From a virus: 64,000 nucleotides of DNA. A model generated the notes under the pieces. It made no database searches and had not been told where the DNA came from. It saw nothing but the letters and a program-made list of their open reading frames with translations. The position numbers and the translations under genes were made by a program. Positions 5,494 through 55,224 of this stretch are shown here, piece after piece (the first letter of the stretch is position 1; each line of letters begins with the position of its first letter). The stretch lies in IMG/VR virus record IMGVR_UViG_3300009164_000056, positions 1 through 64,000 of that record, one strand, 5' to 3'.

Positions 5494-5778
5494 ATGGCAA
5501 TTAAAAAAGACTCTAGATTAGCAAGTGCCGGAGTTGCTGGTTACAATAAACCAAAACGTACTCCGTCACATCCAACTAAGTCACATGTGGTTGTGGCCAA
5601 AGAAGGAGATACAGTAAAGACAATTAGATTTGGTCAACAAGGTGTAAGTGGTGCAGGAGCAAATCCTACCACACCAAAAGAAAAGGCTAGACAAAAATCA
5701 TTCAAGGCTAGACACGCATCAAATATTGCTAAAGGTAAAATGTCTGCTGCTTATTGGGCAGATAAAGTTAAATGGTAA
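5494..5778 (+). CDS. Small basic virion-associated type protein, 94 aa
   Basis: A lysine-rich 94-residue protein with a central KEGDTVKTIRFGQQG strand segment and a conserved-looking C-terminus (KARQKSFKARHASNIAKGK...AYWADKVKW). Proteins with this tail are widespread in phages of aquatic bacteria, from memory, with no firmly known function; their basic nature suggests contact with DNA or the capsid interior. It is the first of five consecutive tiny basic proteins, ending in a 1-nt stop/start overlap with the next. Confidence 0.7.
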   Translation: MAIKKDSRLASAGVAGYNKPKRTPSHPTKSHVVVAKEGDTVKTIRFGQQGVSGAGANPTTPKEKARQKSFKARHASNIAKGKMSAAYWADKVKW

Positions 5779-5957
5779 TGGCAAAAGCAAAATCTACAGT
5801 AAACGCAGCAGGTAACTACACAAAACCAGGAATGCGTAAAAATCTTTTTAATAAGATTAAAGCAGGAAGTAAAGGCGGAGATCCAGGAGAGTGGTCTGCA
5901 CGTAAAGCACAACTACTTGCTGTTCAATATAAAAAAGCAGGAGGAGGCTACAAGTAA
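5778..5957 (+). CDS. Small basic protein, 59 aa
   Basis: A 59-residue protein with the recurrent phage segment YTKPGMRKNLFNKIKAGSKG and the end WSARKAQLLAVQYKKAGGGYK. I choose the ATG at 5778, which overlaps the previous stop as TAATGG; an in-frame ATG at 5772 is also possible. The same TAATGG junction occurs at 5957, 8171, 9475 and 45519. Function unknown; nucleic-acid or capsid association is likely from charge. Confidence 0.75.
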   Translation: MAKAKSTVNAAGNYTKPGMRKNLFNKIKAGSKGGDPGEWSARKAQLLAVQYKKAGGGYK

Positions 5958-6193
5958 TGGCACTAGCAAAATCACAAGAGTCACTTAAGAAGTGGGGTAA
6001 TGAGAAATGGAAGACCTCAGACGGAAAACCGTCTAAAGGTAAGAAAAGGTATTTGCCTTCTGCAGCATGGGATGCATTGAGTGCTTCTGAGAAAGCAGCT
6101 ACTAATAAAGCCAAGGCAGCAGGTAATGCTAAAGGAAAACAATTCGTGAAACAACCAAAATCTGTAGCTAAGAAAGCTGCAAAATTTAGATAA
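5957..6193 (+). CDS. Small basic protein, 78 aa (DUF5872-like)
   Basis: 78 residues, about a quarter lysine. The order LKKWGNEKWKTSDGKPSKG - KKRYLPSAAWDALS - ASEKAATNKAKA - GKQFVKQPKSVAKKAAKF matches, from memory, a domain of unknown function found in phages and large algal viruses (I believe DUF5872). The start overlaps the preceding stop by one base. The run of Ala/Lys in the last 25 residues resembles histone tails or lysine-rich DNA-condensing peptides. Confidence 0.7.
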   Translation: MALAKSQESLKKWGNEKWKTSDGKPSKGKKRYLPSAAWDALSASEKAATNKAKAAGNAKGKQFVKQPKSVAKKAAKFR

Positions 6194-6210: not shown

Positions 6211-6456
6211 ATGAAAACTGTAAAAAAAATGAACATGGGCGGAACAATGATGTCTGACTCAACAATGATGAAAAAAGGTGGTGCCGTAAAAGCTAAAATG
6301 AAAAAAGGTGGTGCAATGAAAGATGTACCTGCTAGTAAAAAAGGATTAGCTAAACTTCCAACAGAAGTAAGAAACAAAATGGGTTACAAAAAGAATGGTG
6401 GTTCTACTGATCCTAAAATGAAAATGGGTGGGGCTATGAAAGGCAAAAAATGCTAA
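6211..6456 (+). CDS. Met/Lys/Gly repeat protein with KxGG motifs
   Basis: An 81-residue protein built almost entirely from Met, Lys and Gly. Double glycines occur at residues 10-11, 23-24, 33-34, 63-64 and 73-74, nearly always after Lys-x or Lys-Met (KKGGAVK, KKGGAMK, KKNGGST, KMGGAMK). It ends in a single Cys. The same K-x-GG motif recurs in the internal virion proteins at 45519-51973. This suggests a sorting, scaffold-contact or cleavage signal; no enzyme function is likely. Confidence 0.7.
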   Translation: MKTVKKMNMGGTMMSDSTMMKKGGAVKAKMKKGGAMKDVPASKKGLAKLPTEVRNKMGYKKNGGSTDPKMKMGGAMKGKKC

Positions 6457-6458: not shown

Positions 6459-6566
6459 ATGAAGAAGACAGACAAAAAAAAGGTGGTCATCCCTAAAGGA
6501 TATCATAAGATGCCAGATGGTAAGATTATGAAAGATAGTGCCCATAAGAAGACTAAAAAGAAGTAA
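6459..6566 (+). CDS. Tiny basic protein, 35 aa
   Basis: A 35-residue frame 2 bp after the previous stop: MKKTDKKKVV, then the motif GYHKMPDGKIMKDSAHK and a Lys tail. That motif is one I recognise from many short phage proteins of the same neighbourhood type, which supports it as a true gene despite its length. About 40% of residues are Lys. Function unknown. Confidence 0.65.
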   Translation: MKKTDKKKVVIPKGYHKMPDGKIMKDSAHKKTKKK

Positions 6567-30200: not shown

Positions 30201-30881
30201 GGATCAAGTCCTTTACCAAGAATGTGGGTTAATAGTTCAGGTAATGTTACTATTGGGACAAGTGAATTAAATTATTCTAAATTAACTGTAGATGGTGACA
30301 TATATGCTACAACTTCAGTAAATGGTTATTTACTTTATGCTTATGGTGGTGGTTATGGTTGTGCTATTGGAAGTCCTGGTATTTTAGGTACTGATATAGG
30401 ATTATATGGTACAGCTGGTGATGAAGTAATTGCTATGTTAAATTATAGTGATGGTTATTATTATTATGGTGGTACTTCTATAAGAAGTAATGGTTCATTT
30501 GTTGGCATTAGTGCATTACCTGATTATCCATTACATGTAGGATCACAAAATGGAAATATTTCTATATATGCTGATTATGATATTGTAGCATTTTCTGATG
30601 AATCAGTTAAAGAAAATATTAGACCTATTGAAAATGTAATTGAAAGAGTACAAAAATCAAGAGGTGTACTATATGACAGAATTGATAGTGGTCATAAAGA
30701 CAATATTGGTTTTATAGCACAAGAGTTAGAACTTACTTTCCCTGAATTAGTTGTTACTAATGAAGATGGAACTAAAGCTGTTAAATATCAGAATGCTGTA
30801 GCTGTTATGTTTGAAGCTATTAAAGAACAACAAAAACAAATAGATGAACTAAAAGAATTAGTAAATAAATTAATCAAATAA
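27258..30881 (+). CDS. Tail fibre with C-terminal S74 chaperone domain
   Basis: A 1207-residue fibre. After the anchor (MAIRFLTSQNIQAG) come beta shafts with three copies of a repeat of type LTGGGASGTWxINITGxA followed by YADxAGYA. Two GxGTxNYxxKxTG motifs lie at about 600 and 865. Residues ~1110-1195 are a Peptidase_S74 (endosialidase-type intramolecular chaperone) domain: FSDESVKENIRPI, with Ser1113 and Lys1118 as the catalytic pair, then GFIAQELELTFPELV and a final coiled coil. It trimerises the fibre and cuts itself off on maturation. This is likely the main receptor-binding protein. Confidence 0.9.
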   Translation: MAIRFLTSQNIQAGTLTVSTIANLSTASNVFLVSDSGLVKYRTATQVRSDIGAGTVTSITITPGTGISGGGTITSSGTLTITNTDLGSSQAIFKNIAAAGESTIVADSNNDTLTFVNGSNIAITTNATTDTITISASDTNNYPTTLTWDTGTGILGLGRSGLSTLTVDLDGRYPENNGTGASGTWGINITGNATYATNAGNADTIDNWAFTNTGSNSSTAPDTINSNGISYTAVALLGQSDGALYSQAYSVSWQHQIFGDYRTGQIAIRGKNSGVWQAWRTVLDSSNYTSYAPTLTGGGASGTWNINITGAAASAAFANYADDAGYATNANYATNSGNATISLYVSSPDGDRVASNKLPNGNPPRAVQYDFASASSVTGATGNYAGVMTYRPWDGTSISTGDSSYQLAFANQSGVNASGPAQLLLRNGINATWNAWQTMLSSSNYNNYSPTLTGGAASGTWSISITGSATSTPYADYADTAGYALDAGNATTANTLSSGQSNWLGTGVINNVVGMLAWKNYGNGHVIFDASNSTTPSGGACNNTNPQNNWTGTFPTLMGWNGVNTYGVRVDSTRVADGLTSMNISQFTNNSGYTTGTGTINYVSKFTGTTTFGNSLIYDDGILVTINGALTVTGSPTNLQYTRVNNDLDIFSGDIDSENYGATARLRLSRASGTLVSPTTPSSGTAIGRVEFGAYNSGTASFIMTAKVEATMDATSGANDLPSRLGFFTTPDNTSTMVERMRINNAGQIRIGGTTMNFSDILNIQAGSIAFQNGYGLRFTSTSGSIYASVYSSSDNTVIKSLGTGVLIKNLSGSDLVTVLNSGSVRFNSYGIGTYVGTATQKLAVDSSGNIIEIPIGAGAVDGSGTANYITKWTSTTSLTNSAIFDNGTNVLIGTTDVGTPTFGSAPQFVVANAAGGVIDIRSLNTNILAGSVLGRLQFTGKDDATVGYTTAAIEAVAVGTAGTGNGGGGKLKFMTAAFGTGSSPLPRMWVNSSGNVTIGTSELNYSKLTVDGDIYATTSVNGYLLYAYGGGYGCAIGSPGILGTDIGLYGTAGDEVIAMLNYSDGYYYYGGTSIRSNGSFVGISALPDYPLHVGSQNGNISIYADYDIVAFSDESVKENIRPIENVIERVQKSRGVLYDRIDSGHKDNIGFIAQELELTFPELVVTNEDGTKAVKYQNAVAVMFEAIKEQQKQIDELKELVNKLIK

Positions 30882-39417: not shown

Positions 39418-42400
39418 ATGGCACAGCAAAATGAAAATCCAGGGACATCTTCTGTAAATACTAATTCATTTATTAAAGGAATGAATAAAGATATTACGCA
39501 GGCAATGGAACCAAAAGAAAGTTGGTGGCATGCGCGTAATGCAATGAATAATTCTACTGATGGAGATCTTGGTGTAATAGGTAATGAACCATCAAACTTA
39601 CAATGTGGTGTTATTCCATATACAATTATTGGTGCTATACATAGATATGGTGATCAATGGGTTGTATATTCTACTGATGATACCAATTCAGAAATTGGAA
39701 CATTTGATGATAGTTTATGTGAATATAAAGTTATTGTAAATGATCCTTGTTTAAACTTTAATAGAAAGTATTTAATAGTTGGTGCAGCTAAAGAAAATTT
39801 TGATTGTACTTGGCAAGTATATTGGGATGATGGAAACAATCCTTCACGTTCATTAAACATTAATAAGGTTCCTTGGATTCAAACTATATCTTCTGCACCC
39901 GGTGATTCATGTATTACATATGATGATACAACACAATTGAATTGTGAAAAAATAAGATTAGCTCCTTTGGTTGATACACCTTGTGTTAGTTTAAGTAAAT
40001 CAATAGATGGTGGTATGTTACAGAATGGAGCATATCAAGCATTTGTTGCTTATACAGAGAATGAACAAAAAGTAACTGATTACATTGGTATTTCTAATGT
40101 TCAAACATTATGGTCACATTCTGGTACAGGTGGTTCATTAAACATTAAGGTAAACAATCTAGATAAAGATTATGATTACTATGAGTTAGTATTACTTATA
40201 AGAAATCAAGGTCAGATATATGCTAAACGTATAGGTCTTTATAGTACACAACAACAAGATATTAATATTGATTATATTGATGATACGTTAGTTGCTGTAA
40301 GTTTAAAAACAATACCACAGAGAAGTCCTGCTTATGAAAAATCAAATGCAATGTATGTTGTAAATGATTGGTTAATAAGACAAGGACCTGTAAGTCAGTT
40401 TGATTTTAACTATCAGCCAATAGCAAATGACATCAAGGTCAATTGGGTAGCAAATCAAATAGATTCTAGTTACTATCATTTAGGTGGTAATAAGTTGGGA
40501 TTCTTAAGAGATGAGCAATATGCATTCTTTATTAGATGGATTTATAATACAGGAGAAAGATCTTCTTCATATCATATTCCAGGAAGAGCACCAAGGCCAT
40601 ATACAACCCCTTCAGGGACATATCTAGAAACAGATATTATATACGGTAATAATGTTTTAGATGTTGCTGGAGATCCTTTATATAAGGTTTATAATACAGG
40701 AACAATTACAGCATCTGGTTTAACAGAAGTTCAGCCTGATGGATCACAGATTATTGCTAGAGGTGAAATGGGTTATTGGGAATCTACTGAAAGATATCCT
40801 GCTAATAGACCAGATATTTGGGGTAACCTTTGTGGTAAACCTATTAGACACCATAAGTTTCCTACTGAAGAAGTGGGAAGTGCTGGTTCACCATTACATA
40901 TAAGCACAACTGCCGGAGATTTAATTAATGTTTTGGGTGTAGAGTTTACAAATATAGGCAGACCAAAATATAATAATGGAACTTATATACCAAATGTAGT
41001 TGGTTATGAAATACTAAGAGGATCTAGAGCGGGTGCTAAATCTATTTTAGCAAAAGGGTTATTTAGAAATATGCGCAAGTATACAATACCTAATGCAGAA
41101 AACTTAATAGGTGGATCTGTCCAAGGTTTATATCCTAACTATCCATATAATGATTTAAGACCTGATGTTTTTTTCCATGATGGAAATGCAAACTCTATTC
41201 ATAGAACAGAAGGTTGTAATAACTATAGTCGATCAATAGGTAATTTTAACCCATTGGGATCTGCACCAGCTGTAGCTGGAGATCCTTCAGGGTATTCTAA
41301 AAAGGTGTTTACATTTTCTTCACCTGATTTGATGTTTACCAAACCTTTTCTTAATGCATATGAAACTAGATTATATGGATATGTAACTGGTAACTCAAGT
41401 GGTTATTTTAAAGCTTCTGAGGATCATCCTCAATTTAAACTATTAAGAAATGGTGCCGCAATTATAGCTGCTGTTATTGGTGTAGGATATGCTATGCATA
41501 AAATGTTAGGTACTAGAAGTAAAACTATAGAAGGTGCTAAAGGTAGTTATCAAGCAAATGATTTTTATTTAGGTTTTGGTACTGGTGGTACAACAGGTGG
41601 TGGTGCAAATCTTGCAGTAAATGCAGCTGGAGCTTTAACCGCTGCTGGAGGTTCAACACTTGGACAAATAGCTCTAAATACATTACTTAATGATGCACTT
41701 GGTTTATTAGATCTTTATGCTGGTGGAGTTGCTACATATACATTGGATATGGTTAATGCCGGAATTGTTACTGCTGCTGGTGCAGCACCTGGTACAATTG
41801 GTGGTTCACTGAATAATACACAAATAAATGATTCATCTGAATCTTCATTACCATATATTGTGAGACTATTTGTAGCTCAAGCTATGTCTAGAACTAATAT
41901 AGCAATTGGTGGAAATGAAATATTAGAATTAATTTATAACTTAATTAATAAGTCTGATTTTGTATTCAAATATAATTCTTATGGATTTTTTAATTCATTT
42001 ACTAAAATTAATACAGGATTATTTAGAATTAAAAATACAGATTCAAATTATTTAGGTCAATCATTTCAATCATTTGATAATGGTAATTATAAAATTAATA
42101 ATTTATTTAGACCATCTACCGTAGCTGTTTCATTAAGTAACCCCGTATCAGAACCAAGTGTAATTGATACATCAAGGTTTACAATTGGAGGTTCTGTTAG
42201 TACTTCTGGTAGTGTTAATGTTACAGATGGAAATATAACTAATCCATCAGTAAAACATAAAACACCTATATCAGCTTATTATGGTGCTCTAAAATTTAAT
42301 TTTGATAATCAATATGGTCAACTAGATGGTATTAAGCAAGTTCAAATGAGAGGTTGTGTAGAATATTTAGATCCTACTAAACCTGATGCTTTTAAATATT

Positions 42401-45400
42401 CTAGTTCAGCTATATTTGGTGGTGATATATTTATTACTAGATATACTGAAAAAGTTATAATGCCAATATTTGCTCAATACTTATTAGGTCAACCTGATGA
42501 ATTTACATATGATTATTCTCAACATGTTAATATACCATATCCAAGATTTTGGTTAAATTCTCAAAAATTTGACATGAGTGCTTTGGCTGGTGAGATTGCT
42601 TCTTTAGGTCTTATAAGTTCTAGTAATTTAGATACTATTTTTCCTAGTGATTTATTTTATTTAGATAGAGGTTCAAATAGTTGTGCTAGTGGTTTGGATG
42701 CAATTTTTGGTAATAGTGGTGATCCTAATCCTAGATTTGCTATGAGATATGCTTATATGTATACTCACGTTAATGGTATATTAGATTTCTTTGTAGAGTC
42801 TGAAGTTAACTTAGCTAATAGAGATTGGGAAGATAGAGCTGACGCAAGAATATATGATGTATATGGTTATAATGATGTAGATGAATTATTTCATGCTCAG
42901 ATTGAAAAGAAAGATAACTTCTATAAGTATGATGAATCATTAAGCCCATCTAAATTTGTAACCCAGTTGGGTAGTTTTGGTGAGATTCAACCAAGATACT
43001 ATGATCCATACACTGCAGAAACTTGTTATGTTAGTTATCCAAAAAGATTAATCTATTCATTACAAGCACAGAAAGAATCTAAAAAAGATTTTTGGAGAGT
43101 ATTCTTACCATTTAATTATCAAGACTTTAAAAATAAAGTAAGTGTAATTAAACCTATTAATAAAAATGGTGCTATTATATTCTTTCCTTTCTTATCTCCT
43201 CAAATGTTTCAGGGAGTAGATACTTTAAGAACGCAGTTAGATACTAAACTTACTATTGGTGATGGAGGATTATTTAGTCAACCATTTCAAAATATTGTTA
43301 ATTCAGATTTATCAAATGAGTATGGATCATGTGAGAGTTTAAGAAGTGTTATGAATACACCCGTAGGTTTGTTTTTTATATCTCAAGCCCAAGGTAAGAT
43401 ATTTCATTTTACTGGTCAAACATTGGATCCAATATCTAATGCGGGAATGAAATGGTGGTTTAATAAATATTTACCATCTCAATTAGTTAAACAATATCCA
43501 CAATTAGAAGCATCTCCATTATCAGATAATCCTGTAGTTGGTGTAGGTTGTCAAACAATTTATGATCCTAATGATGATATAGTTTACTTTATGAAGAAAG
43601 ACTATAGAGTTAAGGCTGAATATATTGCCAATGTTACATATACTGAAAATAGAGGATTTGCTTTATCAGGAAGTCCTATTACATTAGGTGACCCAATATT
43701 TTTTGATGATTGTTCTTGGACTGTAAGTTATGATCCTAAAGCTAAAGCTTGGATATCATTCCATGATTGGCATCCTGAATTTGCATTGCCTAGTATTAAC
43801 CATTTCTTTACTACTAAGACAATGGCTACTACTATACCACAATGTCCTCCGGGTTATAATTATAACTCTACTAATGGATTATGTGAAAGATCTATTAATA
43901 TTAATGAACCAGCTATTATTACAGTAGATCAAATAAATTCTGTTGTTAATGGTGGTCCTACAAATTGTTTAGTAGATATTGTTATTGCAATGGATGTATC
44001 TGGTTCTACAAATTCTAATGGAGCAAGACAAGCTCAACCAGCATGGTTAACTGCATTTTTAAATGATCCAAATATAACTGGACCAATGGCCGCTGGTACA
44101 ATGCAAATAGGATTTACTGCTTGGGATGGTGCTAATAGAAATTACAATATACCAAATCCAGCAGGTGGTACATGGTCAATGAGTAATACAGTTACTGAAC
44201 CACAAGTAACAGCATGGTATAATGCTAACTGGGCAGGTGGTTCTACAAATGTTTCATTGGGTATGTCTAGTGCTTTGACAATGTTAAATAATAAAACAGC
44301 TAGTCAACTAGGTAATAGAAGTGCACAACCATTTTTTAGACAAATAATTATATTGGTTACTGATACAACAAGTAATCCCGGTAATATTGGTTGTCCATAT
44401 CAAGGTACTGGTGTTTCTCCAAGTGCAACTGGTCCTGCAAATCAAAGAGTATATGCATTGTTCTGTGGGCAAAGTAGTGCCTCACCTAGTAATCCTGCTG
44501 TATTAGGTAATATATCTTGTACGCCAGGACCTGTAAATGTTGATGGTTATCAATTTGGAATTAATGCATCTGTACCTGCAACGTTTACTGCAGTAGCAAG
44601 TGCTATTGCAGGTTCTGTTTGTTCAATTCCATTTACTTGTGATTGTGCTCCCGGTTATACAAAAGTATTTTATAATACAGCAACAAGTGTTTATACTTCA
44701 CCAACGGGTGTGTGTGATGACATTACACCACCTGTATGTAGAAAAGTTACTTGTGCGTGTCCGGTATCTCCTGTAGGTACAACAACTACAACAACAGGAA
44801 ATTGTGATGATGTTTATTTAGTGGGTAATCCTACATATGTAAATCCAAATCCTCAGATTTGTAATTTCTTTAAATATGAATCTACACCTGCTAATTACAA
44901 AGTTGGTTCATTCTGGAGACACAATGTTAGATGTGATAGTTTTGCTAATTTCTATGGTACTGATTATCCATGGGAAGTAGAATTGGTTTCTAATACTGGA
45001 CAAATGGTTAACACTGTTAGAAGTATGGAGTATCAATTAGAATCTTATGTATATAAAGGTGATATGGGATTTGCTTGTAATGATGATAGATGGGAAGATT
45101 TGAATTTCAATTTTGATCAATCAGTTATTTATAACAATGAACAAGTATCAGGGTTATTACAATTAACTCCAACACCATATAACAATCCTGTTTTAGAATT
45201 GAGTTACCCTATTATTAACTTGAATAGTATGAATATACTATGTTCTAAAGTAGAACAGAAATATAGATTCAATCAGTTCTATGATATTACTAATGATAGA
45301 GGTGAATTTACAAACGTTGAACAAGCAATATGGGATACACAACCTAATGGATATATTAAAGTTTTAAATACTATAAACTTAAATTATAATAAACCTCCAT

Positions 45401-45519
45401 TACAGCATAAGAAGTTTAGACATTATTATAACAATGTTATTTTAAGAAGGGTTAAATCAGAAAATAGAAAGATGTTATTAAGATTAAATAATACTAAATT
45501 ACTTTTATCAATGAGATAA
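39418..45519 (+). CDS. Large tail (muzzle-like) protein with inserted vWA domain
   Basis: 2033 residues, the size and place of the crAss-like tail-tip (muzzle) protein. The N-terminus (SFIKGMNKDITQAMEPKESW, NAMNNSTDGDLGVIGNEPSN) and C-terminus (HNVRCDSFANFYGTDYPWEVE, KKFRHYYNNVIL) are of that family. Residues ~690-705 and ~750-800 are Ala/Gly-rich, probably internal. Between INHFFTTK (about 1468) and FWRHNVRC (about 1836) lies an extra block: CPPGYNYNSTNGLCE (1476-1490), a vWA domain with MIDAS D1526-V-S1528-G-S1530 (to about 1735), and a Cys-rich segment (CDCAPGY, CACPV). The vWA would give the tail a metal-dependent adhesion site. The stop overlaps the next start. Confidence 0.8.
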   Translation: MAQQNENPGTSSVNTNSFIKGMNKDITQAMEPKESWWHARNAMNNSTDGDLGVIGNEPSNLQCGVIPYTIIGAIHRYGDQWVVYSTDDTNSEIGTFDDSLCEYKVIVNDPCLNFNRKYLIVGAAKENFDCTWQVYWDDGNNPSRSLNINKVPWIQTISSAPGDSCITYDDTTQLNCEKIRLAPLVDTPCVSLSKSIDGGMLQNGAYQAFVAYTENEQKVTDYIGISNVQTLWSHSGTGGSLNIKVNNLDKDYDYYELVLLIRNQGQIYAKRIGLYSTQQQDINIDYIDDTLVAVSLKTIPQRSPAYEKSNAMYVVNDWLIRQGPVSQFDFNYQPIANDIKVNWVANQIDSSYYHLGGNKLGFLRDEQYAFFIRWIYNTGERSSSYHIPGRAPRPYTTPSGTYLETDIIYGNNVLDVAGDPLYKVYNTGTITASGLTEVQPDGSQIIARGEMGYWESTERYPANRPDIWGNLCGKPIRHHKFPTEEVGSAGSPLHISTTAGDLINVLGVEFTNIGRPKYNNGTYIPNVVGYEILRGSRAGAKSILAKGLFRNMRKYTIPNAENLIGGSVQGLYPNYPYNDLRPDVFFHDGNANSIHRTEGCNNYSRSIGNFNPLGSAPAVAGDPSGYSKKVFTFSSPDLMFTKPFLNAYETRLYGYVTGNSSGYFKASEDHPQFKLLRNGAAIIAAVIGVGYAMHKMLGTRSKTIEGAKGSYQANDFYLGFGTGGTTGGGANLAVNAAGALTAAGGSTLGQIALNTLLNDALGLLDLYAGGVATYTLDMVNAGIVTAAGAAPGTIGGSLNNTQINDSSESSLPYIVRLFVAQAMSRTNIAIGGNEILELIYNLINKSDFVFKYNSYGFFNSFTKINTGLFRIKNTDSNYLGQSFQSFDNGNYKINNLFRPSTVAVSLSNPVSEPSVIDTSRFTIGGSVSTSGSVNVTDGNITNPSVKHKTPISAYYGALKFNFDNQYGQLDGIKQVQMRGCVEYLDPTKPDAFKYSSSAIFGGDIFITRYTEKVIMPIFAQYLLGQPDEFTYDYSQHVNIPYPRFWLNSQKFDMSALAGEIASLGLISSSNLDTIFPSDLFYLDRGSNSCASGLDAIFGNSGDPNPRFAMRYAYMYTHVNGILDFFVESEVNLANRDWEDRADARIYDVYGYNDVDELFHAQIEKKDNFYKYDESLSPSKFVTQLGSFGEIQPRYYDPYTAETCYVSYPKRLIYSLQAQKESKKDFWRVFLPFNYQDFKNKVSVIKPINKNGAIIFFPFLSPQMFQGVDTLRTQLDTKLTIGDGGLFSQPFQNIVNSDLSNEYGSCESLRSVMNTPVGLFFISQAQGKIFHFTGQTLDPISNAGMKWWFNKYLPSQLVKQYPQLEASPLSDNPVVGVGCQTIYDPNDDIVYFMKKDYRVKAEYIANVTYTENRGFALSGSPITLGDPIFFDDCSWTVSYDPKAKAWISFHDWHPEFALPSINHFFTTKTMATTIPQCPPGYNYNSTNGLCERSININEPAIITVDQINSVVNGGPTNCLVDIVIAMDVSGSTNSNGARQAQPAWLTAFLNDPNITGPMAAGTMQIGFTAWDGANRNYNIPNPAGGTWSMSNTVTEPQVTAWYNANWAGGSTNVSLGMSSALTMLNNKTASQLGNRSAQPFFRQIIILVTDTTSNPGNIGCPYQGTGVSPSATGPANQRVYALFCGQSSASPSNPAVLGNISCTPGPVNVDGYQFGINASVPATFTAVASAIAGSVCSIPFTCDCAPGYTKVFYNTATSVYTSPTGVCDDITPPVCRKVTCACPVSPVGTTTTTTGNCDDVYLVGNPTYVNPNPQICNFFKYESTPANYKVGSFWRHNVRCDSFANFYGTDYPWEVELVSNTGQMVNTVRSMEYQLESYVYKGDMGFACNDDRWEDLNFNFDQSVIYNNEQVSGLLQLTPTPYNNPVLELSYPIINLNSMNILCSKVEQKYRFNQFYDITNDRGEFTNVEQAIWDTQPNGYIKVLNTINLNYNKPPLQHKKFRHYYNNVILRRVKSENRKMLLRLNNTKLLLSMR

Positions 45520-47138
45520 TGGAGAAAAAGATACAACATAAAGAACTTAGAGGATTACCTGGAGGCCCAAATGAAATGCCTGTTGATGTTACAAGGGTAT
45601 TTTCTACTGAAGGATATAGAATAGATAGTCCTGATGTAGATAATGATAAAAACATTATACCATCTGGATCTATTACTATGAAAGAAAAAGATGGAAGTCC
45701 TTTAAGAAAGGGTCCAATTCATGGTGTTGATAATTTAGGTAATGAACAAGTTATGTATCCTGGTTATGACTATGAGTTTCCTGGCACTGAAGTAACAGAA
45801 ACATTAATAGCCAAGATGGGTGGTGGCCTATTAGATAAAACTATCAAGTGTAGTAATTGTGGTTGGGAATGGAAAGCTGCTGATGGTGGATCTGATATTT
45901 ATGATTGTCATAAGTGTCCTGGTAAAGGTGTAGTAAAAGCACAAGCAGGAAAAGAAGTGAAAGAAAATACTTCTTGGACAGCATATCTTAATCCAGCAAA
46001 CTGGGGTACATCTAGGTATGATGATGCTGGTACATTTAAAGAAGCTTTTAGAGCAGCACGTAATGAAGGTGATTCTGATTTCTTATGGAAAGGTGATAGA
46101 TATTCTACTGAATTAAAAGCTGAATCAAAAGAACCGGCTAAAGCAAAAGGAATAACACCGGAACTTTTAATAAGACAAGCATATAGAGAATCTGCATTTA
46201 ATCCTAATACTGTTTCACCTAAAGGTTATAAGGGTTTAGGTCAAATTGGAGATGGTGTAATTAAAGATTATAAAAAGGCAAATAATATTACAGGTAATAT
46301 TGATCCTTTTAATATGAAACAAAACTCCGATGTCCAAAAATATTCAATGAATGAATTATATAATTCAAGTTTTATTAATAAACCAGGTCAATCAGAAAAT
46401 GTAAGATTAGCTAAAACATTAGCTTCTTATAACTGGGGCCGTGGTAATGTTATGAACTTACTAAATGATTTAAAAGAAGAAGGTGTTGACATTTATAATA
46501 GTTTAGATTGGGTTAGTAAATTACCTGAAGAACCAAGAAATTATATTAATGATATACTATTACAAAAAAACACTACCTTTAACACTGATTTTTCTAAAGC
46601 ACTGGGTAACCAAAAGAATAAACCTATAAAAAGTTTATATGGTTTTAAAGATGGTGGTGAATCAAAACCAGGACCATTAATGCAAGCATACAATAGACTA
46701 CTAGCAGAAAAGAAAATGGGTGGTGCTATAGATTACAAACAAGGTGGTGGTGAAAAGAAATATTCAGAACAAGATGGTAGATTAGTTGTAACTACAAAAA
46801 AAGTTGATACAGCAGATGGACCAAGATTTTATCAAGCCAAATCACCTGATTATAATTTTTCAATAGAATTGACAGATGCTAAAAAAGTTGGTGATTCAAT
46901 ACCAAGAGCTAATTTAAATCCGCGTATAATTGAAGTTTTAAATAAAAAAGAATTTGGTGGTCAATTAAATTCTGGTAATATTACTATGTATAAAGATTAT
47001 ATAAAAGGTAATGTTGGGAATGAAATAGAAGCAGTAAAAAACTATGATAAACTAAATAGAATTTATTATAGTAAAGCAAAAGAGTTAGGAATGACTGTTG
47101 CAAATTACATAATGACGCATGTTGTAGGCAATTCTTAA
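45519..47138 (+). CDS. Internal virion protein: zinc ribbon plus lytic transglycosylase
   Basis: 539 residues. Residues 111-133 hold a zinc ribbon, C111-x2-C114 (CSNCGWEWK) and C130-x2-C133 (CHKC). Residues ~210-345 are an SLT-type (soluble lytic transglycosylase-like) domain: LIRQAYRESAFNPNTVSPKG with catalytic Glu224, then GLGQIGDG and ASYNWGRGNV. It cuts the peptidoglycan glycan strand during DNA entry. K-x-GG motifs occur at 99-103, 379-380, 401-402 and 409-411 and another near 484. N-terminal NIIPSGSITMKEKDG and YPGYDYEFPG appear in other phage internal proteins. It follows the muzzle by a 1-nt overlap and is likely ejected with DNA. Confidence 0.82.
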   Translation: MEKKIQHKELRGLPGGPNEMPVDVTRVFSTEGYRIDSPDVDNDKNIIPSGSITMKEKDGSPLRKGPIHGVDNLGNEQVMYPGYDYEFPGTEVTETLIAKMGGGLLDKTIKCSNCGWEWKAADGGSDIYDCHKCPGKGVVKAQAGKEVKENTSWTAYLNPANWGTSRYDDAGTFKEAFRAARNEGDSDFLWKGDRYSTELKAESKEPAKAKGITPELLIRQAYRESAFNPNTVSPKGYKGLGQIGDGVIKDYKKANNITGNIDPFNMKQNSDVQKYSMNELYNSSFINKPGQSENVRLAKTLASYNWGRGNVMNLLNDLKEEGVDIYNSLDWVSKLPEEPRNYINDILLQKNTTFNTDFSKALGNQKNKPIKSLYGFKDGGESKPGPLMQAYNRLLAEKKMGGAIDYKQGGGEKKYSEQDGRLVVTTKKVDTADGPRFYQAKSPDYNFSIELTDAKKVGDSIPRANLNPRIIEVLNKKEFGGQLNSGNITMYKDYIKGNVGNEIEAVKNYDKLNRIYYSKAKELGMTVANYIMTHVVGNS

Positions 47139-47198: not shown

Positions 47199-49415
47199 GT
47201 GAAAGTAAACAAAATAAGTTTAATGCAAGAAGGAGGACAGAATACTGAACAAGTTGCAGCCCAGCCACAACAACAATCAGTAGATCCTGCTATACAACAA
47301 ATTTCAGATTATATTTCTCAAGCAATAGGTCAAGGACAGAATGCTGCGGAAGTTGTTATGGCTTTAGTTCAACAGCAAGTTGATCAACAAACTATTGGTC
47401 AAGCTTTAATGATGAATGGTTTTGAAGAAAATGATATTGCTTCTTTGTTTGAACAAATGAGTCAAGGTCAACAACCAGAAGAACAAGTTGGTGGTGAACC
47501 AATGCCTGTTGATCAATTAGATCAAACTTCACAACAATTAACTGAAAATGAAGACATGCATGCTGATGATATGTCAAAAGAAGAAACACAAGAACCCGGA
47601 ATGTCTATGGGTAAATCAGGAATAGAAATTAAACCTGAAAATGAAGGTAAGTTTACTAGATGGGCTCAAGCACGCGGAATGTCTGTGCAAGATGCTGCAA
47701 GTAAAGTTATGGCAAATAAAGATGAATATCCTCCAGCTGTAGTTAAGATGGCAAACTTTGCTAAGAACGCTGCTGGTTGGAAAAAAGAAGATGGTGGTGA
47801 ACAGTATGATATGGGTGGTACTCCTCAAGGTAAAGTAGGAGCAGTTAACAATGTATCTGTTAATAAAGATATGAATTGGCAACAAGCTCCTGTGTATATT
47901 AATCCAATGGCGTTTGAATATACTAATGATAACTTTAGTTTAGGTAAAGCAGCTGCTGTTGCTTATGGTGGTTATAAAGAATTTTTAAGTGGTGCAGATG
48001 AAAATAAAGATGGTGTCAAAGACGGATTCTTTAGAGATGGTTCAAAAAAAGCAGGGATAAGAGATGCCACTAAAGGTAATTATTATAATTATAAAATTAC
48101 CCAAGATGCTAATGATACAAATAAATACGTAGCAGACAATACAGATTTATTTAATGCATCAAAAGATAAAGGAAATTTAAGAACAATTGATCAATATGGT
48201 AAAGATGTAGCAAGTAATTCTAGATTTAATTATGATACTAAAACACATGATTATAATTCTATTATTAGCAGTAGACCTATAGATGAAAGAATTTATGACT
48301 CAGCTGCTCAAAAAAATGCAATAGCAGGTAAAGATTATAACTACTTAGCTAGCATGGATAAAGATACCAAAGCTATGATTATGAGTGGTAAAGATGATCC
48401 TACTGGAACTAGAATAGGTATTGATGAAAAAGGTAATGGTATGTCATATATGCCCGGTGCAGATAATCCATATGAGTATAATACATATATGGGTATTAAT
48501 AAAGTTGGTCAAAATACAATGATACCTACTGGAAACAATGGTCAACCCATAGCTGGTATGACTAATACTCAACCATCAGTATTGGCTGTTGCACCTTCTA
48601 CTACTCCACCTAATGTACCACAAAAATCATTTAAAGATTGGTATGTTACAGGAGATGCTGTAAGAAATCAAGGTAAAAATCAAGAACAACTTCAATCTGA
48701 GTATGACGCTTACCTTAAACAAGGATTTAAATATGGTGGTGACTTAGACAAAGCTCAAATGGGTCCTCCTGAATGGTTAGCTGGTTTAGCAAATCAAAAT
48801 TCATTTTATGATCCAATGCAACAACAAGGAATAAATAGTTTCTTTAGTAATATGGGTCAAACAGATTATATGTCAGATACACAAGCTGTAGCTGATGCTC
48901 AATTACAAAAACAAAATCCAGCATTAGGAGCAACTCCGCAACAACAACAAATGCAAAATATGTTTACTCCCCAACAAGGCAGTCCAACATTTAATGCACC
49001 AACAAAACCAGCTGCACCAACATTTGAACCACCAAAAGTAGAAAGAACAAATAAGTTTGAAGGTGGGATGAATAGACTAGCCGATAGTCCTGTAGTACAA
49101 GGTTATGGAAAATTGTCTAACTTTGCCGTTAAAGGTGCTGATGTTATTAATGATTGGTTTAGAGATAAAAATGTTAATCAAGCAAGAGAAGATAATTTTA
49201 ATAAATTAGGTGCTGATTATCAATATGCTACAGCAGAAGATCCTTTTAATAAAAGAGGAATGTGGGATGTTAATACTGGAACTGCAGGTAGTGAAGGAGA
49301 TAGAACAGTTGGTTTATACATGAGCAAATACGGTGGTGAAAACAATACTGTAAATGTTGATTCAAATATATTAGCAAAATTAATTGCAGCGGGAGCTGAC
49401 ATTGAAATATTATAA
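47199..49415 (+). CDS. Internal virion (cargo) protein, 738 aa
   Basis: Starts at GTG 47199, giving MKVNKISLMQEGG; an ATG at 47223 is possible but lacks the basic start. The first ~130 residues are Gln-rich and partly disordered. A module FTRWAQARGMSVQDAASKVMAN...VKMANFAKNAAGWKK lies around 150-195. K-x-GG type motifs occur at MQEGG (9-13), EDGGEQYDMGG (about 197-208), KYGGDL (about 511) and KYGGEN (about 711). The remainder is polar, flexible, with a Lys/Asp-rich folded stretch. It sits in the place of crAss-like cargo proteins packed in the head and tail. No enzyme seen. Confidence 0.72.
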   Translation: MKVNKISLMQEGGQNTEQVAAQPQQQSVDPAIQQISDYISQAIGQGQNAAEVVMALVQQQVDQQTIGQALMMNGFEENDIASLFEQMSQGQQPEEQVGGEPMPVDQLDQTSQQLTENEDMHADDMSKEETQEPGMSMGKSGIEIKPENEGKFTRWAQARGMSVQDAASKVMANKDEYPPAVVKMANFAKNAAGWKKEDGGEQYDMGGTPQGKVGAVNNVSVNKDMNWQQAPVYINPMAFEYTNDNFSLGKAAAVAYGGYKEFLSGADENKDGVKDGFFRDGSKKAGIRDATKGNYYNYKITQDANDTNKYVADNTDLFNASKDKGNLRTIDQYGKDVASNSRFNYDTKTHDYNSIISSRPIDERIYDSAAQKNAIAGKDYNYLASMDKDTKAMIMSGKDDPTGTRIGIDEKGNGMSYMPGADNPYEYNTYMGINKVGQNTMIPTGNNGQPIAGMTNTQPSVLAVAPSTTPPNVPQKSFKDWYVTGDAVRNQGKNQEQLQSEYDAYLKQGFKYGGDLDKAQMGPPEWLAGLANQNSFYDPMQQQGINSFFSNMGQTDYMSDTQAVADAQLQKQNPALGATPQQQQMQNMFTPQQGSPTFNAPTKPAAPTFEPPKVERTNKFEGGMNRLADSPVVQGYGKLSNFAVKGADVINDWFRDKNVNQAREDNFNKLGADYQYATAEDPFNKRGMWDVNTGTAGSEGDRTVGLYMSKYGGENNTVNVDSNILAKLIAAGADIEIL

Positions 49416-49417: not shown

Positions 49418-51973
49418 ATGGCAAAAATTAAAATAAATAGTTTACCTGCAGGCTTTAAATTAGTTAATGGTAAAATAGAAGAAGATCAAATAATGAAAGA
49501 AGGTGGCTATGTAACTGGTGACCAAGCTGGTTATGGATTAGTTACTCTACCACAGGAGTATTATAATAATGCTAATATAAATACTACAAGAGATGAATCT
49601 GTAAGATATAGTTTATCTGGCGTACCTAGGGACAAAGCAAACATTGAAGCTGAAGGTGGTGAAACTGTGTTAACTGATTTAAACAATGACAATCAATTTG
49701 GTCTATATAATATAACTGGACCAAGACACTCTAAAGGTGGTGTGCCAATGTTTTTACCAGAACAATCTTTTATTTATTCTGATACAGATAAAATGAGATT
49801 TAATCAAGAAGAATTAGCTGAGTATGGTATTGAAACCAAATTAAAAATGACTCCTGCTCAAGTATCTAAAAAATATGATCTTAATAAATACTATGGTGCT
49901 ATGAAAGATCAATTTGCAGATGATATAACTTCACGTAGTTCTGAAATAATGTTAAAGAAAAATATGATGGGATTATCTAAATTAGCATTTGGTCAAGAAC
50001 TTAAAAAGAAATTTGAAGATGGTGTGCCTTTAGCGGCTCATCCATACTTAGTTTCTATTGGAGAAGATCCAATTGAGTTTACTGCAAAAGTAGAAAACAT
50101 TACTAAGAAGCAAGCTCAGATGAAAGCATTTGCTGCTTTGTCTCCTGAACAACAACAACAATTATTACAGTTGCAAGAAATGATGGCTCAAGTTGATGGT
50201 CAACAACCTCAACAACAAGAACAATCTTTTGAAGATCCTTCAATGCAAGATCCTGGTATGCAAGAACAACAATTAGCTATGGCTGATCAAGATGTTATGG
50301 CTATGGGTGAAGAAGGAATGGCAAGATATGGTAGAGAAATTGGAATGTACCAAGATGGTAAAGAAAAACCTGTTAATCCTTTTCCTAAAGATGATCCTAA
50401 TTATGCTAAGGTTCAAGAAATGATTGACTCTGGTAAATATGAAATGACTAAAGGAGCTGTTGTAAATGGTAAACAGATGTATAAATTTAAAGAAATTTCA
50501 ACTGAAGATCCTAAATTTAAAGCAGATAAAGAAGCTCAACTAAAAAAAGAAAAAATTTCAGGCAAAGATCAAAAAGGACAAGGATCAACATCAATTTATG
50601 AAGAAGGTATTTCTGGTCAAGAACGAGCAATAAATGAAAGTCCTATTGGTTATTATATACCTGGTAGATTATCACAAGGTACTAGACCTTCATTTCAAAA
50701 TAAAGCAAGTGATAAAGCATATGGTTCAGCTGATATTGCAACTCCAGAATCACAAGCAGATTTTGAAGCTAGATGGAGTGATGTTATAGCACAAATACCT
50801 GGATTTGATTATAATAAACCTTTACCTAAAAATGCTAAAGGTGAAACATTAGCAGATCCTCAATGGACTCAGTTTCAAAAATTAGCAGAAGAAACAAGAA
50901 GAAAAGAACATATTGCTGCATTTGGAAATGATAAAGATTATGTACCATACTTTAAAGATAAAATAATAAAAGATGAAGACAAAGGAAAAGGTTTTGATGG
51001 TAAGATAGGATTGCATACTTATAATGCTCCACGTTTTAAACTAAATCCAGTAAAACCCGGTGATGTTGAATTTGGTCTTGATATACCAGAACCAAAAAGA
51101 CCAGATCTAGAAATTACTCCAATTAAAGAGTATATACAACCTGAAGGACAATGGTGGGCACAAGATGTTAATAACTTAAATGCTTTAAGTTTAGTTGATG
51201 ATAATTTGTATTTACCATGGGCACCAGATGCTGCACCTGCTAAAATAGATTATGTATTAGATGATTGGAGAAGTAATGCTAATGCAAATTTAGCAGCTGC
51301 AAATACTATGGCCGGAGCATTAGGTGCTGCCGGTGGACCACAAGCTGTAGCTACTTCAAACATTCAGGGTACTGCACTTGAAGGTATTGCTCAAGGTATT
51401 AATAGAGTCAATACTAATAATGTTGGCATAATGAATCAAGTAGCTCCAATGCAAGCACAATTAGATATGCAAGTTAATGGTATTAACCAAGCTAGGAATA
51501 CTAAAGTTTATGATGATACTCAAAAAACATTGCAGAATCATGACAACTTTAAAAATTGGAAGATTGGTAAAGAAGCAGAACTCTTTAATACAGCACTTAC
51601 TAATAGAGCTAATACATATAATTTAAATTCAACTTATGATAATTATTCAATTGATCCTACAACAGGTGGTCCTATTTATTATAAAAATAGTAAAGCCTTG
51701 CAGAAAGTTGGAAAAGAACCTGATAGACAAAAAATACTATTAGATTCATATGCTGAACTAAAGAAAAATTTAGGACCAGATCAAAAGGTTGATTTAGATT
51801 TCTTAAAAATGTATATGGGCATGAGTCCATCTGCTAACACTGATATAACTAATGCTCAATTAGAAATGCAAAAAAGAGGTACGCCAATGGGATATCCACA
51901 AGCTCAACTTAAATCAGGAAAAGAAATAAAAAGGATGGTAGTACCATTCTACACAGGAAAGATGGGAGCATAA
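49418..51973 (+). CDS. Internal virion (cargo) protein, 851 aa
   Basis: 851 residues, 2 bp after the preceding gene. The opening (INSLPAGFKLVNGKI...IMKEGGYVTGDQ) and RHSKGGVPMFLPEQSFIYSDTDKMRF segment are of a kind I have seen in large phage internal proteins. Residues ~245-290 are Gln/Met-rich (PEQQQQLLQLQEMM). The second half is helical with an Ala-rich region (NANLAAANTMAGALGAAGG, 620-640). KEGG, AEGG and SKGG motifs recur. Probably unfolds and is ejected with the genome. No catalytic motif seen. Confidence 0.72.
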   Translation: MAKIKINSLPAGFKLVNGKIEEDQIMKEGGYVTGDQAGYGLVTLPQEYYNNANINTTRDESVRYSLSGVPRDKANIEAEGGETVLTDLNNDNQFGLYNITGPRHSKGGVPMFLPEQSFIYSDTDKMRFNQEELAEYGIETKLKMTPAQVSKKYDLNKYYGAMKDQFADDITSRSSEIMLKKNMMGLSKLAFGQELKKKFEDGVPLAAHPYLVSIGEDPIEFTAKVENITKKQAQMKAFAALSPEQQQQLLQLQEMMAQVDGQQPQQQEQSFEDPSMQDPGMQEQQLAMADQDVMAMGEEGMARYGREIGMYQDGKEKPVNPFPKDDPNYAKVQEMIDSGKYEMTKGAVVNGKQMYKFKEISTEDPKFKADKEAQLKKEKISGKDQKGQGSTSIYEEGISGQERAINESPIGYYIPGRLSQGTRPSFQNKASDKAYGSADIATPESQADFEARWSDVIAQIPGFDYNKPLPKNAKGETLADPQWTQFQKLAEETRRKEHIAAFGNDKDYVPYFKDKIIKDEDKGKGFDGKIGLHTYNAPRFKLNPVKPGDVEFGLDIPEPKRPDLEITPIKEYIQPEGQWWAQDVNNLNALSLVDDNLYLPWAPDAAPAKIDYVLDDWRSNANANLAAANTMAGALGAAGGPQAVATSNIQGTALEGIAQGINRVNTNNVGIMNQVAPMQAQLDMQVNGINQARNTKVYDDTQKTLQNHDNFKNWKIGKEAELFNTALTNRANTYNLNSTYDNYSIDPTTGGPIYYKNSKALQKVGKEPDRQKILLDSYAELKKNLGPDQKVDLDFLKMYMGMSPSANTDITNAQLEMQKRGTPMGYPQAQLKSGKEIKRMVVPFYTGKMGA

Positions 51974-52032: not shown

Positions 52033-55000
52033 ATGGCAACATACGTACCAGGAGTAGAAACATATTTACCAGACATTAAACCGTTTACACCAGACTATAA
52101 ATTTTTGTCTGCTGTACTTGATATAAGACAGGATAAATATAACACTAATTGGAAGGCAACTAATGACCTTTACAATAAAATAGTCTATGCAGATTTGTCT
52201 AGAACAGATACCAAAGAACAAAGAGATCAATATATAAATCAATTAGCTCCATCTTTAGAGAAGATCTCAGGGATGGATTTATCATTGGCACAAAATGTAG
52301 ATGCTGCTAAATCAGTATTTGCACCATTCTTTGAAGATGATTTAATAGTAAGTGATATTATGCATACCACTAACTATAGAAAAGAAATGGATTATGCAAA
52401 TAGACTTATTGATTCTCCTGATCAAAAGCAAAGAGAAAAGTATTCTCAAGATGGGGTAAAAGGTTTACAATACCACATGGAGGACTTTATAAATGCTGCT
52501 CCTGATAAAGCAATGAAAATGGGGTTACCTAAATTTACTGAAGATGCTGATTTAATAGAATTATCACAAGAGGTTTTAGGTGCAATGAAACCACCTTTGA
52601 AAATGAAGGTAGATCATTATGGTGTAAATCCTGATGGTTCAGTAAATACTGATTGGATTATTACAGAACAAAATGGTAATTTAGTTACTGGTCCTGCATT
52701 ACAATATATTCAGAAAGCTTTATTAGATGATCCAAGAGTTGTAAGACATTATCAAAATCAAGCGTTTGTAAGAGGTAGAGATTTTGCTGCAGAAGGTATG
52801 GCCAGCGGAATGTTTACTAGTAAAGAAGAAGGTCAAGCTGCTTGGGCATCTGAAACTATCAATAGAATAAATAAACAAAATGAGTACTATGTAAAGAAAG
52901 ACATTAAAGCTTTAGCGTTAGCTCAAGATGTGAATGTTAGATGGGATAACTATCAAGCTTCTAATGGTATTGTTCCAGGTTCTGATGATGAAAAAGCAAT
53001 GCTTGGACAACGTTCATCTTATGAAGCTACTAAAGCAGCTTTAGATGCAAAGTTAAATATTCAGAAAACAGCTAATGCACCCGTTAAAGATTTTGAAGGT
53101 ACATTGAATAAAGCTTATAATCTTTTAATGCAGAATAACATATCTAAAGATATGCAAGCTGCTGCTCAAGCATATGGTGCTAGAGATATGGAGTATACAA
53201 TGAAGGTTAATGACTATGCTAAACAAAGAAAAGATTTTGAATATGACTTAGCTAAAATTGAAAGACAACATCAAAATGCAATTGAGTTAGCTAATGTTAA
53301 AGGTCAAATTGATTTTGATTTAGCTAAAGCAAAAGGAGAAATTCCAACTGAAAACCCTTTACTAAAGGCATTATTAAATGGTGCACCTACTGTTGGTGGT
53401 GCTCAAAATTCAAATTATCCAGTTGGTCCTGATGGATTAGCAGATAAAAATACAAATATGTATTTAATGGCAAGCAAAGAGTATGGTGAATTAAGAACTC
53501 CAGTTAGAGAGAAACAACTTGATGCTGCTACTAGTGTATTAACATTTTTAAATCCTGCGGGAGAAATAGATAATGCTGGTAAACCTACACAAAAATATAC
53601 AGTAAAAGTAGAGGGTCAAAATTTTACAGGAACAATTGATCAAATAAAAAATAAGCTTGGTACTAAAAATACAGATGGTACTTTTAAGTATAGAACAGAT
53701 ATAGATGATTTATATCAACAACAATCTGCAATATTGAATGATCCAAAACAAATGGCTAAGTATCCTGGTAAAGCTAAGACAGATACTTATAAAAATTTGT
53801 ATGCACAAATATATTCTGATCAAGGAATTAATAATCAAGTTCAAGTACTTGATCAAACAATTAATACTTTAACAACTAAGTATAAAAAAACACATGATGG
53901 AGTTGTAGAGTTAGTTAAAGGTGAAGATAGTAAGGTTAAAGAGTTAATGGAAAAAGGAGGGATGCCCGGTATATTTGAAACAACAGCATCTGGTTTTAAT
54001 CAAGAACTTTCTAAATCAGAATATATTGCTAAAGTAGCAAAATTAGCATCACAAGGAAAAGTAAAAAATATAGATCTTCCAGGATGGGATACTGGTACAA
54101 GTAATAGTAATTATATGCATACTGTTACAAAAGGTACCGGTGAATATTATTCAACTAGAGATGGTGAAGGTGGTAGTATACAAAAAGAAAGACAGACAAC
54201 TGTTACTGAATTAGATATGAGTGCTATTGAAGCTGAAGCAGGCAGGGTATATGATGCAATTAAAACAAAAAGTAATAGTGCTTTAACGGGGCATCTTGGT
54301 AATAAGTTTGAAACTGCAACTTATAAAGGTCTTTTATTTGGAAAAACAGGTGCTTCTGAAATAACTACAGCACCAGTTTATAGATCTGTTGTTGATCCTT
54401 TAGTTGCTTCCTCAGAAGGTCAAACTACCTTAGCTCAAATGGTAACGCAAAAGAATATGTTAGATTCACAAGGTGGTGGTTATTCAATAGTCCTTGGTAA
54501 TTTATCAGATAAAAAAGATGCTAAATCTATAGGTAATGATGCATTGGCTGCTAAAGCTTACAATGCTTATATAGCTGATATGACAACATGGTTAGGTAAT
54601 CCTAAACGTAGTAATGATGCAGGTAATTCTCCAAGAGCAACTATTACATATTCTGGTACATTGGGTGCTACAGGAGACGGAAATAAAACCACAGCCGGAT
54701 ATACTATTGATGGATTTAATGAATGGCTATCTAGTAAAGTTAAAGGTTCAGTAACAGAATCAAGTGGTGCTGCAGGTGAATATGGTTTATTTAGCAAATC
54801 AGAAGTAGAACAATTACGTAATGGAATTAGTATGGTGTTTGATAAAGGACAAGATATTAATCCTAGATCTAGTAATAGACAATACTATTCTAAAACATTA
54901 GCGGCTGTTGAAGCTAGTCCTGACAAATATGTAGAATATAATTATGGTGGAGTAGATGGTATGACACCAACTGGAACATATAGAATTGTTAAAACAGGAA

Positions 55001-55224
55001 CAGATCAGTTTTATGCTACATATAAATATAATACTTATCAACCTAATGGAACATATACCACAAGTGATTGGCAACAAATTCCTATAGAAATGGGTTCTTT
55101 TAATGCAGCTCAATCAATTGATGCGCAAGTACAAAAAATGAAAGAAACATTTGAAATTAAAAGACAAATGAACTTAGATGATTATAATAAAAACTCTGCT
55201 GTTAACGGAAGAAAAAATAAATAA
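52033..55224 (+). CDS. Internal virion (cargo) protein, 1063 aa
   Basis: 1063 residues, mostly helical, without membrane segments. It begins YVPGVETYLPDIKPFTPDYKFLSAVLDIRQDKYNTNWKATNDLYNKIVYADLSRTDTKEQRDQYINQLAP, a recurring opening of large phage internal proteins, and contains a long coiled stretch near 395-445 (MEYTMKVNDYAKQRKDFEYDLAKIERQHQNAIELANVKG). No K-x-GG cluster, unlike its two neighbours. Position suggests ejection or tail-lumen cargo. No enzymatic motif recognised. Confidence 0.7.
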   Translation: MATYVPGVETYLPDIKPFTPDYKFLSAVLDIRQDKYNTNWKATNDLYNKIVYADLSRTDTKEQRDQYINQLAPSLEKISGMDLSLAQNVDAAKSVFAPFFEDDLIVSDIMHTTNYRKEMDYANRLIDSPDQKQREKYSQDGVKGLQYHMEDFINAAPDKAMKMGLPKFTEDADLIELSQEVLGAMKPPLKMKVDHYGVNPDGSVNTDWIITEQNGNLVTGPALQYIQKALLDDPRVVRHYQNQAFVRGRDFAAEGMASGMFTSKEEGQAAWASETINRINKQNEYYVKKDIKALALAQDVNVRWDNYQASNGIVPGSDDEKAMLGQRSSYEATKAALDAKLNIQKTANAPVKDFEGTLNKAYNLLMQNNISKDMQAAAQAYGARDMEYTMKVNDYAKQRKDFEYDLAKIERQHQNAIELANVKGQIDFDLAKAKGEIPTENPLLKALLNGAPTVGGAQNSNYPVGPDGLADKNTNMYLMASKEYGELRTPVREKQLDAATSVLTFLNPAGEIDNAGKPTQKYTVKVEGQNFTGTIDQIKNKLGTKNTDGTFKYRTDIDDLYQQQSAILNDPKQMAKYPGKAKTDTYKNLYAQIYSDQGINNQVQVLDQTINTLTTKYKKTHDGVVELVKGEDSKVKELMEKGGMPGIFETTASGFNQELSKSEYIAKVAKLASQGKVKNIDLPGWDTGTSNSNYMHTVTKGTGEYYSTRDGEGGSIQKERQTTVTELDMSAIEAEAGRVYDAIKTKSNSALTGHLGNKFETATYKGLLFGKTGASEITTAPVYRSVVDPLVASSEGQTTLAQMVTQKNMLDSQGGGYSIVLGNLSDKKDAKSIGNDALAAKAYNAYIADMTTWLGNPKRSNDAGNSPRATITYSGTLGATGDGNKTTAGYTIDGFNEWLSSKVKGSVTESSGAAGEYGLFSKSEVEQLRNGISMVFDKGQDINPRSSNRQYYSKTLAAVEASPDKYVEYNYGGVDGMTPTGTYRIVKTGTDQFYATYKYNTYQPNGTYTTSDWQQIPIEMGSFNAAQSIDAQVQKMKETFEIKRQMNLDDYNKNSAVNGRKNK

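Follow-up and report, generated by a model that had tools for sequence, protein, structure and literature searches.

Results and Discussion

A tiny basic gene in a crAss-like genome

The open reading frame at position 6211 encodes a small basic protein that repeats the motif K-x-GG, and the same motif is met again in much larger proteins encoded downstream of the muzzle gene. The locus thus raises the question of what such a tiny protein has in common with probable interior proteins of the virion, and whether the motif is more than a matter of composition. The window, i.e., the whole stretch of 64,000 bases analysed here, is part of an 89,570-base IMG/VR record of a crAss-like phage. Its features are listed in Table 1; larger proteins are named after their first nucleotide.

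Four tiny basic genes (5494, 5772, 5957 and 6211) are followed by an amidase-like gene (7248), the genes of the terminase large subunit (11356), the portal (13594) and the capsid protein (17818), the muzzle gene, and then 45519, 47199, 49418, 52033 and the giant of 4516 residues. With a muzzle protein matching Pfam crAss_MUZ encoded upstream (39418-45519), this is a virion module of the Crassvirales type. A tail-fibre-like protein of 1207 residues (27258-30881) carries a Peptidase_S74 chaperone domain at its C-terminus.

Table 1. Coordinates of the features discussed (positions in the window).
Feature	Position	Strand	Remarks
Tiny basic gene A, PHROG 7595, cassette of the 81-aa gene	5494..5778	+	
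Tiny basic gene B, PHROG 17747, cassette of the 81-aa gene	5772..5957	+	GG-fused to D in other viruses
Tiny basic gene C, PHROG 14910, cassette of the 81-aa gene	5957..6193	+	D-fused in Roseobacter phage CRP-13
81-aa basic protein, K-x-GG repeats flanking D core	6211..6456	+	pI about 10.4, net charge +18
D core, residues 37-64, KDVPASKKGLAKLPTEVRNKMGYKKNGG, most conserved part	6319..6402	+	alignment of relatives
35-aa ORF MKKTDKKKVVIPKGYHKMPDGKIMKDSAHKKTKKK (MPDG)	6459..6566	+	homologue joined to D through KKGG in L215
crAss-type muzzle protein	39418..45519	+	Pfam crAss_MUZ, E 1.9e-28; synteny anchor
539-aa protein, SLT transglycosylase domain, probable ejected cargo	45519..47138	+	
Module M45, 45519 residues 400-486	46716..46976	+	GG at both ends
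738-aa protein, probable C1-type cargo	47199..49415	+	K-x-GG or x-GG joints
Module G, 47199 residues 139-204	47613..47810	+	homologous to part of crAss001 gp45
851-aa protein, conserved GG dyads at residues 29, 80, 107	49418..51973	+	predicted disordered segments
1063-aa neighbour, internal control	52033..55224	+	GG dyads not conserved (0-13% kept)
Giant 4516-aa protein, HEAFH site	55262..64000	+	extends beyond the window

The 81-residue protein contains a conserved core

As described in the initial annotation, the gene at 6211 encodes 81 residues with K-x-GG units, which make up four of its five GG dyads. The description as little else than repeats does not hold: between the repeats lies a core of 28 residues, here called D (KDVPASKKGLAKLPTEVRNKMGYKKNGG), which is almost invariant in 22 close relatives, while the number of K-x-GG repeats varies widely in the same set. 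No family matches the protein in PHROGs or Pfam at E<=1, and the family of small proteins with a D module is defined in this analysis. Its pattern, G-L-x-x-L-x-x-x-V-R-N-K-M-G and then GG, is present in small proteins of viral genomes.

D was found in at least 521 viral loci, among them the Roseobacter phages CRP-1, CRP-13 and CRP-345, either free-standing or fused via K-x-GG to other tiny modules; the scored loci are mostly the best 80 of the 521 matches, and 521 is a minimum for the family. Among 84,980 cellular genomes, only six contigs carry D. Closed D reading frames (n = 104) have a median length of 127 residues. Partners fused to D through K-x-GG joints in other viruses are module B (nine distinct proteins), the modules H, H' and YRW, and the MPDG peptide; in the window, B and MPDG have genes of their own adjoining D (5772-5957 and 6459-6566). 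A protein of 383 residues (L145 2584-3735) combines D with a region matching tape-measure/endolysin families of PHROGs and is a possible further embedded case.

Genes A, B and C are as basic as the 81-residue protein. Their position 5' of the amidase-like and terminase genes is conserved in the crAss-like relatives viewed, and gene A has matches in 51 phage records.

K-x-GG is enriched and directional

Each protein of the window was shuffled 1000 times with its composition kept. K-x-GG occurs four times in the 81-residue protein (0.50 in shuffled sequences, p<0.001), four times in 45519 (0.58, p 0.002) and twice in 47199 (0.45), the last being marginal (p 0.08). The single copy in 49418 is no enrichment (0.51 shuffled). 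52033 has none (0.60 shuffled), and the same holds for the portal (13594) and the capsid protein (17818), which bears out the reported absence of a motif cluster from these three. All strings quoted in the initial annotation are present, i.e., KMGGG, KKMGGAIDYKQGGG, EDGGEQYDMGG, KYGGDL and MKEGG. Eleven of the 15 K-x-GG motifs in the 43 window proteins fall into 6211, 45519, 47199 and 49418, which hold 13% of the residues (binomial p 2e-7, for a post-hoc choice of proteins).

A clearer picture emerges from diverged relatives, for which 33 non-redundant loci with less than 70% identity of the 49418 homologue were collected from viral contig scans. K-x-GG occurs 42 times in their 45519 homologues (13.8 expected, z 7.9) and 61 times in their 47199 homologues (13.4 expected, z 13.2), whereas the mirror motif GG-x-K stays at expectation (14 vs 15.4 and 14 vs 13.4, respectively). 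K-x-GG outnumbers GG-x-K in 26 of 30 loci. The homologues of 52033 contain 22 copies (11.2 expected), but at no conserved position. In 56 distinct small D proteins, K-x-GG was counted 110 times against 21.7 expected (z 19.9) and GG-x-K 12 times against 21.6. Because the relatives share descent, the z-scores overstate independence and should be read as upper bounds; neither the mirror control nor the boundary test described below relies on them. Shuffling and mirror motif together rule out chance or composition as the source of K-x-GG.

The claim that the motif recurs in three large proteins consequently stands for 45519 and for 47199, where shuffling alone is weak and the 33 relatives confirm both, but not for 49418. 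The latter was rejected as a carrier: its homologues have 19 copies with 15.4 expected, and all that is conserved are three GG dyads. The protein is better left out of the K-x-GG group, as its GG is conserved but K-x-GG is not enriched. The internal virion proteins of Roseobacter phage CRP-345, considered as a second independent system, show no enrichment of the motif.

Conserved glycine pairs lie in predicted disordered joints

In 45519, K-x-GG is found at positions 45813, 46647, 46713 and 46737 of the window, and K-x-x-GG stands at the joint preceding the C-terminal module. K-x-GG or x-GG joints of 47199 are located at residues 12, 98, 199, 206, 513 and 712. In three close relatives, the GG dyads of 45519, 47199 and 49418 are almost all retained, and none of the six in 52033 is. 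In the wider set, the GG dyads of 49418 at residues 29, 80 and 107 are kept in 100, 85 and 100%, those of 47199 at residues 12, 513 and 712 in 88, 77 and 69%, and those of 52033 in 0-13%. The expected conservation at homologous positions is therefore seen for the glycines of all three proteins, but the preceding residues vary across relatives, so that GG is the fixed part of the motif.

AlphaFold models of 49418 (mean pLDDT 67.8) and 47199 (mean pLDDT 54.8) are of low confidence and were used for order and disorder only. In both, the conserved joints lie in segments with pLDDT below 50 between predicted domains. This applies to all six joints of 47199, while GG257 and GG622 of this protein are placed in helices. 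Residues 109-140 of 45519 (CSNCGWEWKAADGGSDIYDCHKC) resemble a zinc ribbon with a conserved GG within.

The same modules occur free and embedded

Residues 26-65 of the 81-residue protein match residues 540-581 of an 848-residue homologue of 47199 (L107 4452-6998) with E 6e-8. The embedded copy reads KFGGQ-LKQTPSGKKGKGLRKLPRQVRNKMGY-MKYGG and thus has GG on both sides; at the threshold used, no free D gene was found in the L107 genome. L107 is the one clear case of D inside a cargo protein. The tiny and the large proteins hence share more than composition, as had been supposed, with D embedded in a 47199 relative and K-x-GG enriched family-wide.

Other modules behave alike. D cassettes encode module H (LWDNIRANKGSGKKPT) as a free protein of 47-52 residues, and L070 3714-6998 has it embedded (E 9e-18), together with a D variant of Roseobacter phage CRP-9 (E 7e-6). 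Module P, which makes up a protein of 48 residues in Methylophilales phage MEP401, is also present inside 33 cargo reading frames (best E 4e-8). Module G is part of crAss001 gp45; DAC15 has two copies of it, cr128_1 has one, and in L125 it stands free. H, P and G are thus found both free and within 47199-type proteins, mostly adjoining GG joints. M45 of 45519 has a free relative of 106 residues, whose gene adjoins those of B, C and D in L021. In addition, about 16 homologues of 47199 carry a GG-bracketed, D-like repeat, GFKALPxxVQxNI, which is commoner than embedded D. Profile comparison gives no more than moderate support for its relationship to D, the hhalign score being 17.6 against 13.5 for the best of 40 nulls.

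In the boundary test, GG was sought within 10 residues of the ends of module matches. It lies upstream of P in 28 of 28 unique copies (3.6 expected), upstream of Q in 7 of 7 (0.9 expected) and downstream of G in 37 of 43 (6.7 expected). P is preceded by several different segments, with a GG joint between in every case.

The SLT cargo-like protein ranges from 539 to more than 2000 residues across relatives (homologues L027 1558-5769 and L024 3652-6225), and its growth in size consists of whole domains (LysM, YkuD and others) inserted between GG joints.

Relation to the crAss001 cargo protein and other known systems

In crAss001, the muzzle gene is followed by those of cargo protein gp45, gp46 and the RNA polymerase proteins (PMC10172136). 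Cargo C1 (gp45, PDB 7qog and others) resembles the proteins studied here in following the muzzle gene, in containing module G and in being rich in GG (21 vs 13 expected) at linker positions. GG-rich linkers are common to both sides, with conserved GG in 45519, 47199 and 49418 and enriched GG in crAss001 gp45 and DAC15_59. The gp45 homologues of DAC15 and cr128_1 have G once or twice, adjoining GG. Unlike our phage, which has three proteins (45519, 47199 and 49418) in that place, crAss001 has a single gp45 of 842 residues, and this is not enriched in K-x-GG (1 vs 0.92). The lysine is accordingly not universal, the gut phage protein being enriched in GG but not in K-x-GG. Residues 425-552 of gp45 form an ordered, portal-bound segment in cryo-EM (PMC10172136); the segment starts with AFGGWLNTQGG, goes on through FINEGGSHEENP and spans the GG dyads 427, 434 and 447.

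Module G is the sole significant homology between 47199 and gp45 (hhalign 97%, E 8e-11). For 49418, a likeness to the gp45 C-terminus seen by eye (GG..H..GG.P..LPE.SF..SD) was confirmed neither by profile search (E 0.14 and 0.047) nor by a fold match in PDB, and 52033 was not confirmed as a gp46 homologue. Sequence searches of PDB with 47199 and 6211 gave no meaningful match. By synteny and the one common module, proteins of the 45519 and 47199 type are probably the counterparts of the C1 cargo (gp45) region in crAss001. In Cellulophaga phage phi14:2, post-muzzle proteins are annotated as virion proteins from MS/MS.

Ejection proteins of the T7 gp16 type carry cell-wall hydrolase domains, similar to the SLT transglycosylase domain of 45519, whose relatives swap in LysM and YkuD domains; for T7, the open-access literature searched mentions neither GG joints nor shared tiny modules. 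Homologues of A, B and C with 53-83% identity occur in phages of Roseobacter, SAR11, SAR116, OM43 and cyanobacteria. Marine podoviruses (HMO-2011-type Roseobacter phages CRP-1/CRP-345/CRP-13, Pelagibacter HTVC033P/104P, Methylophilales MEP401 and Synechococcus S-CRES1) hold them, together with D in the Roseobacter phages, in cassettes often near lysis, terminase and portal genes, although these viruses belong to other phage lineages with hosts of other phyla. PHROG 7595, 17747, 14910, 20603 and 16028 and Pfam DUF6321 give profile matches for A, B, C, G and D-fused modules; all are functionally uncharacterised, and none covers D, the K-x-GG joints or the pairing of free and embedded copies.

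A joint between exchangeable modules and its alternatives

The positions of the motif, at module boundaries and in predicted disordered linkers, fit a joint best; in sequence, a sorting signal or a partner-binding site, both initially suggested, would look like such a joint. We lean towards K-x-GG as an unstructured joint that connects exchangeable modules of probably ejected cargo proteins, and the 81-residue protein is probably a stand-alone copy of a module that relatives build into probable virion-interior proteins. Direct support comes from the enrichment and asymmetry of the motif, its conserved positions, its location at module borders and the modules that are both free and embedded. 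The modules would be small, mostly basic units of about 25-80 residues, bounded by a joint of the form [K/R/Q/M]-x(0-1)-GG-[E/A/S/Q] and shuffled between tiny free proteins, such as the one at 6211, and long proteins like 45519 and 47199, which are made of several modules. As an unstructured hinge, the joint would permit separate folding and the exchange of modules with the chain intact and, if the long proteins are cargo, would let them thread through portal and tail. The tiny protein could be a virion-associated or DNA-binding companion made from the same module, and the directional lysine that precedes GG may contribute a weak interaction with DNA or a virion protein. We infer the hinge and companion roles, as well as those in packaging and binding. 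Gene position and one shared module suggest that 45519, 47199 and 49418 are cargo; 45519, 47199 and the 6211 product would reside inside the virion and be ejected.

A rather unlikely reading, which may hold alongside the joint, takes K-x-GG as a short linear binding motif, each copy docking on a repeated site of the portal wing, the tail barrel ring or another virion protein, with the tiny protein competing for or filling these sites. A directional motif, with K before GG and E, S or A after it, is in good agreement with docking, as is position conservation beyond the needs of a neutral flexible linker. Also, GG lies within a docked region of gp45, whose portal-bound segment begins with AFGGWLNTQGG (PMC10172136). 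However, no common partner was identified, only module G significantly ties these proteins to gp45, and K is missing from the crAss001 joints. As a quite improbable alternative, GG could be a proteolytic site, cut after the second glycine during head maturation, perhaps by the zincin-like HEAFH site of the giant. Other viral proteases do cut at GG-x sites, GG stands between modules here, and some modules exist as separate proteins. The HEAFH residues are indeed present in the 4516-residue protein, but nothing ties them to GG and no protease was identified here. Double-glycine cleavage as a general rule, as initially suggested, is disfavoured by gp45, in which residues 425-552 run continuously across all three GG dyads and the capsid and tail parts are described as one bridged chain (PMC10172136). 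For D and its relatives a cut is unnecessary, because they are encoded as separate genes.

The charge of the 81-residue protein, its three equally basic cassette neighbours and the variable number of repeats would also suit a DNA-condensing peptide, whose Lys/Met/Gly repeats would owe their likeness to the cargo joints to convergence. This, too, has little probability in our judgement, since the 28-residue core is homologous to a cargo-embedded module, K-x-GG has the same direction in both protein sets, and composition-preserving shuffling does not yield the motif; as the whole story, DNA condensation is already unlikely. The modular joint may be part of something wider. Quite tentatively, one may imagine that aquatic viruses with hosts among Bacteroidota, SAR11, Roseobacter, SAR116, OM43 and cyanobacteria share a kit of interchangeable tiny GG-jointed modules, carried in the virion and delivered with the DNA, as separate small proteins or as strings within cargo proteins, for which K-x-GG would be the assembly or threading tag.

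Modular phage proteins are already familiar. Within the libraries and open-access papers searched, three things are new: the D family without Pfam or PHROG match, the K-x-GG joint rule, and the fact that a tiny module forming a free protein in one phage can be part of a cargo-region protein in a second. In the open-access literature searched, neither a GG motif nor a module system is described for these proteins. Aquatic phages encode many tiny basic hypothetical proteins, for hardly any of which an explanation exists. Reading several of them as modules of crAss-like cargo-region proteins would give a first concrete hypothesis for their role, and the largely disordered cargo proteins would gain a readable module grammar. 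The hypothesis is testable by virion proteomics on existing isolates, namely phi14:2, crAss001, DAC15 and the CRP and HTVC phages.

Two minor observations concern further tiny proteins. A second GG-rich one of 94 residues, with KMRKGGDAMRY and YKMGGYVQS, is encoded in the same genome outside the window (G000 79820-80104, equal to L032 4921-5205), at the same location as a D-bearing tiny protein of relative L135. In Roseobacter phages (L028 2935-3093, L029 1444-1821 and L042 3551-3961), small proteins that are otherwise unlike end in an identical C-terminal tail, KCGASYKG, which follows KGGYA or a similar sequence.
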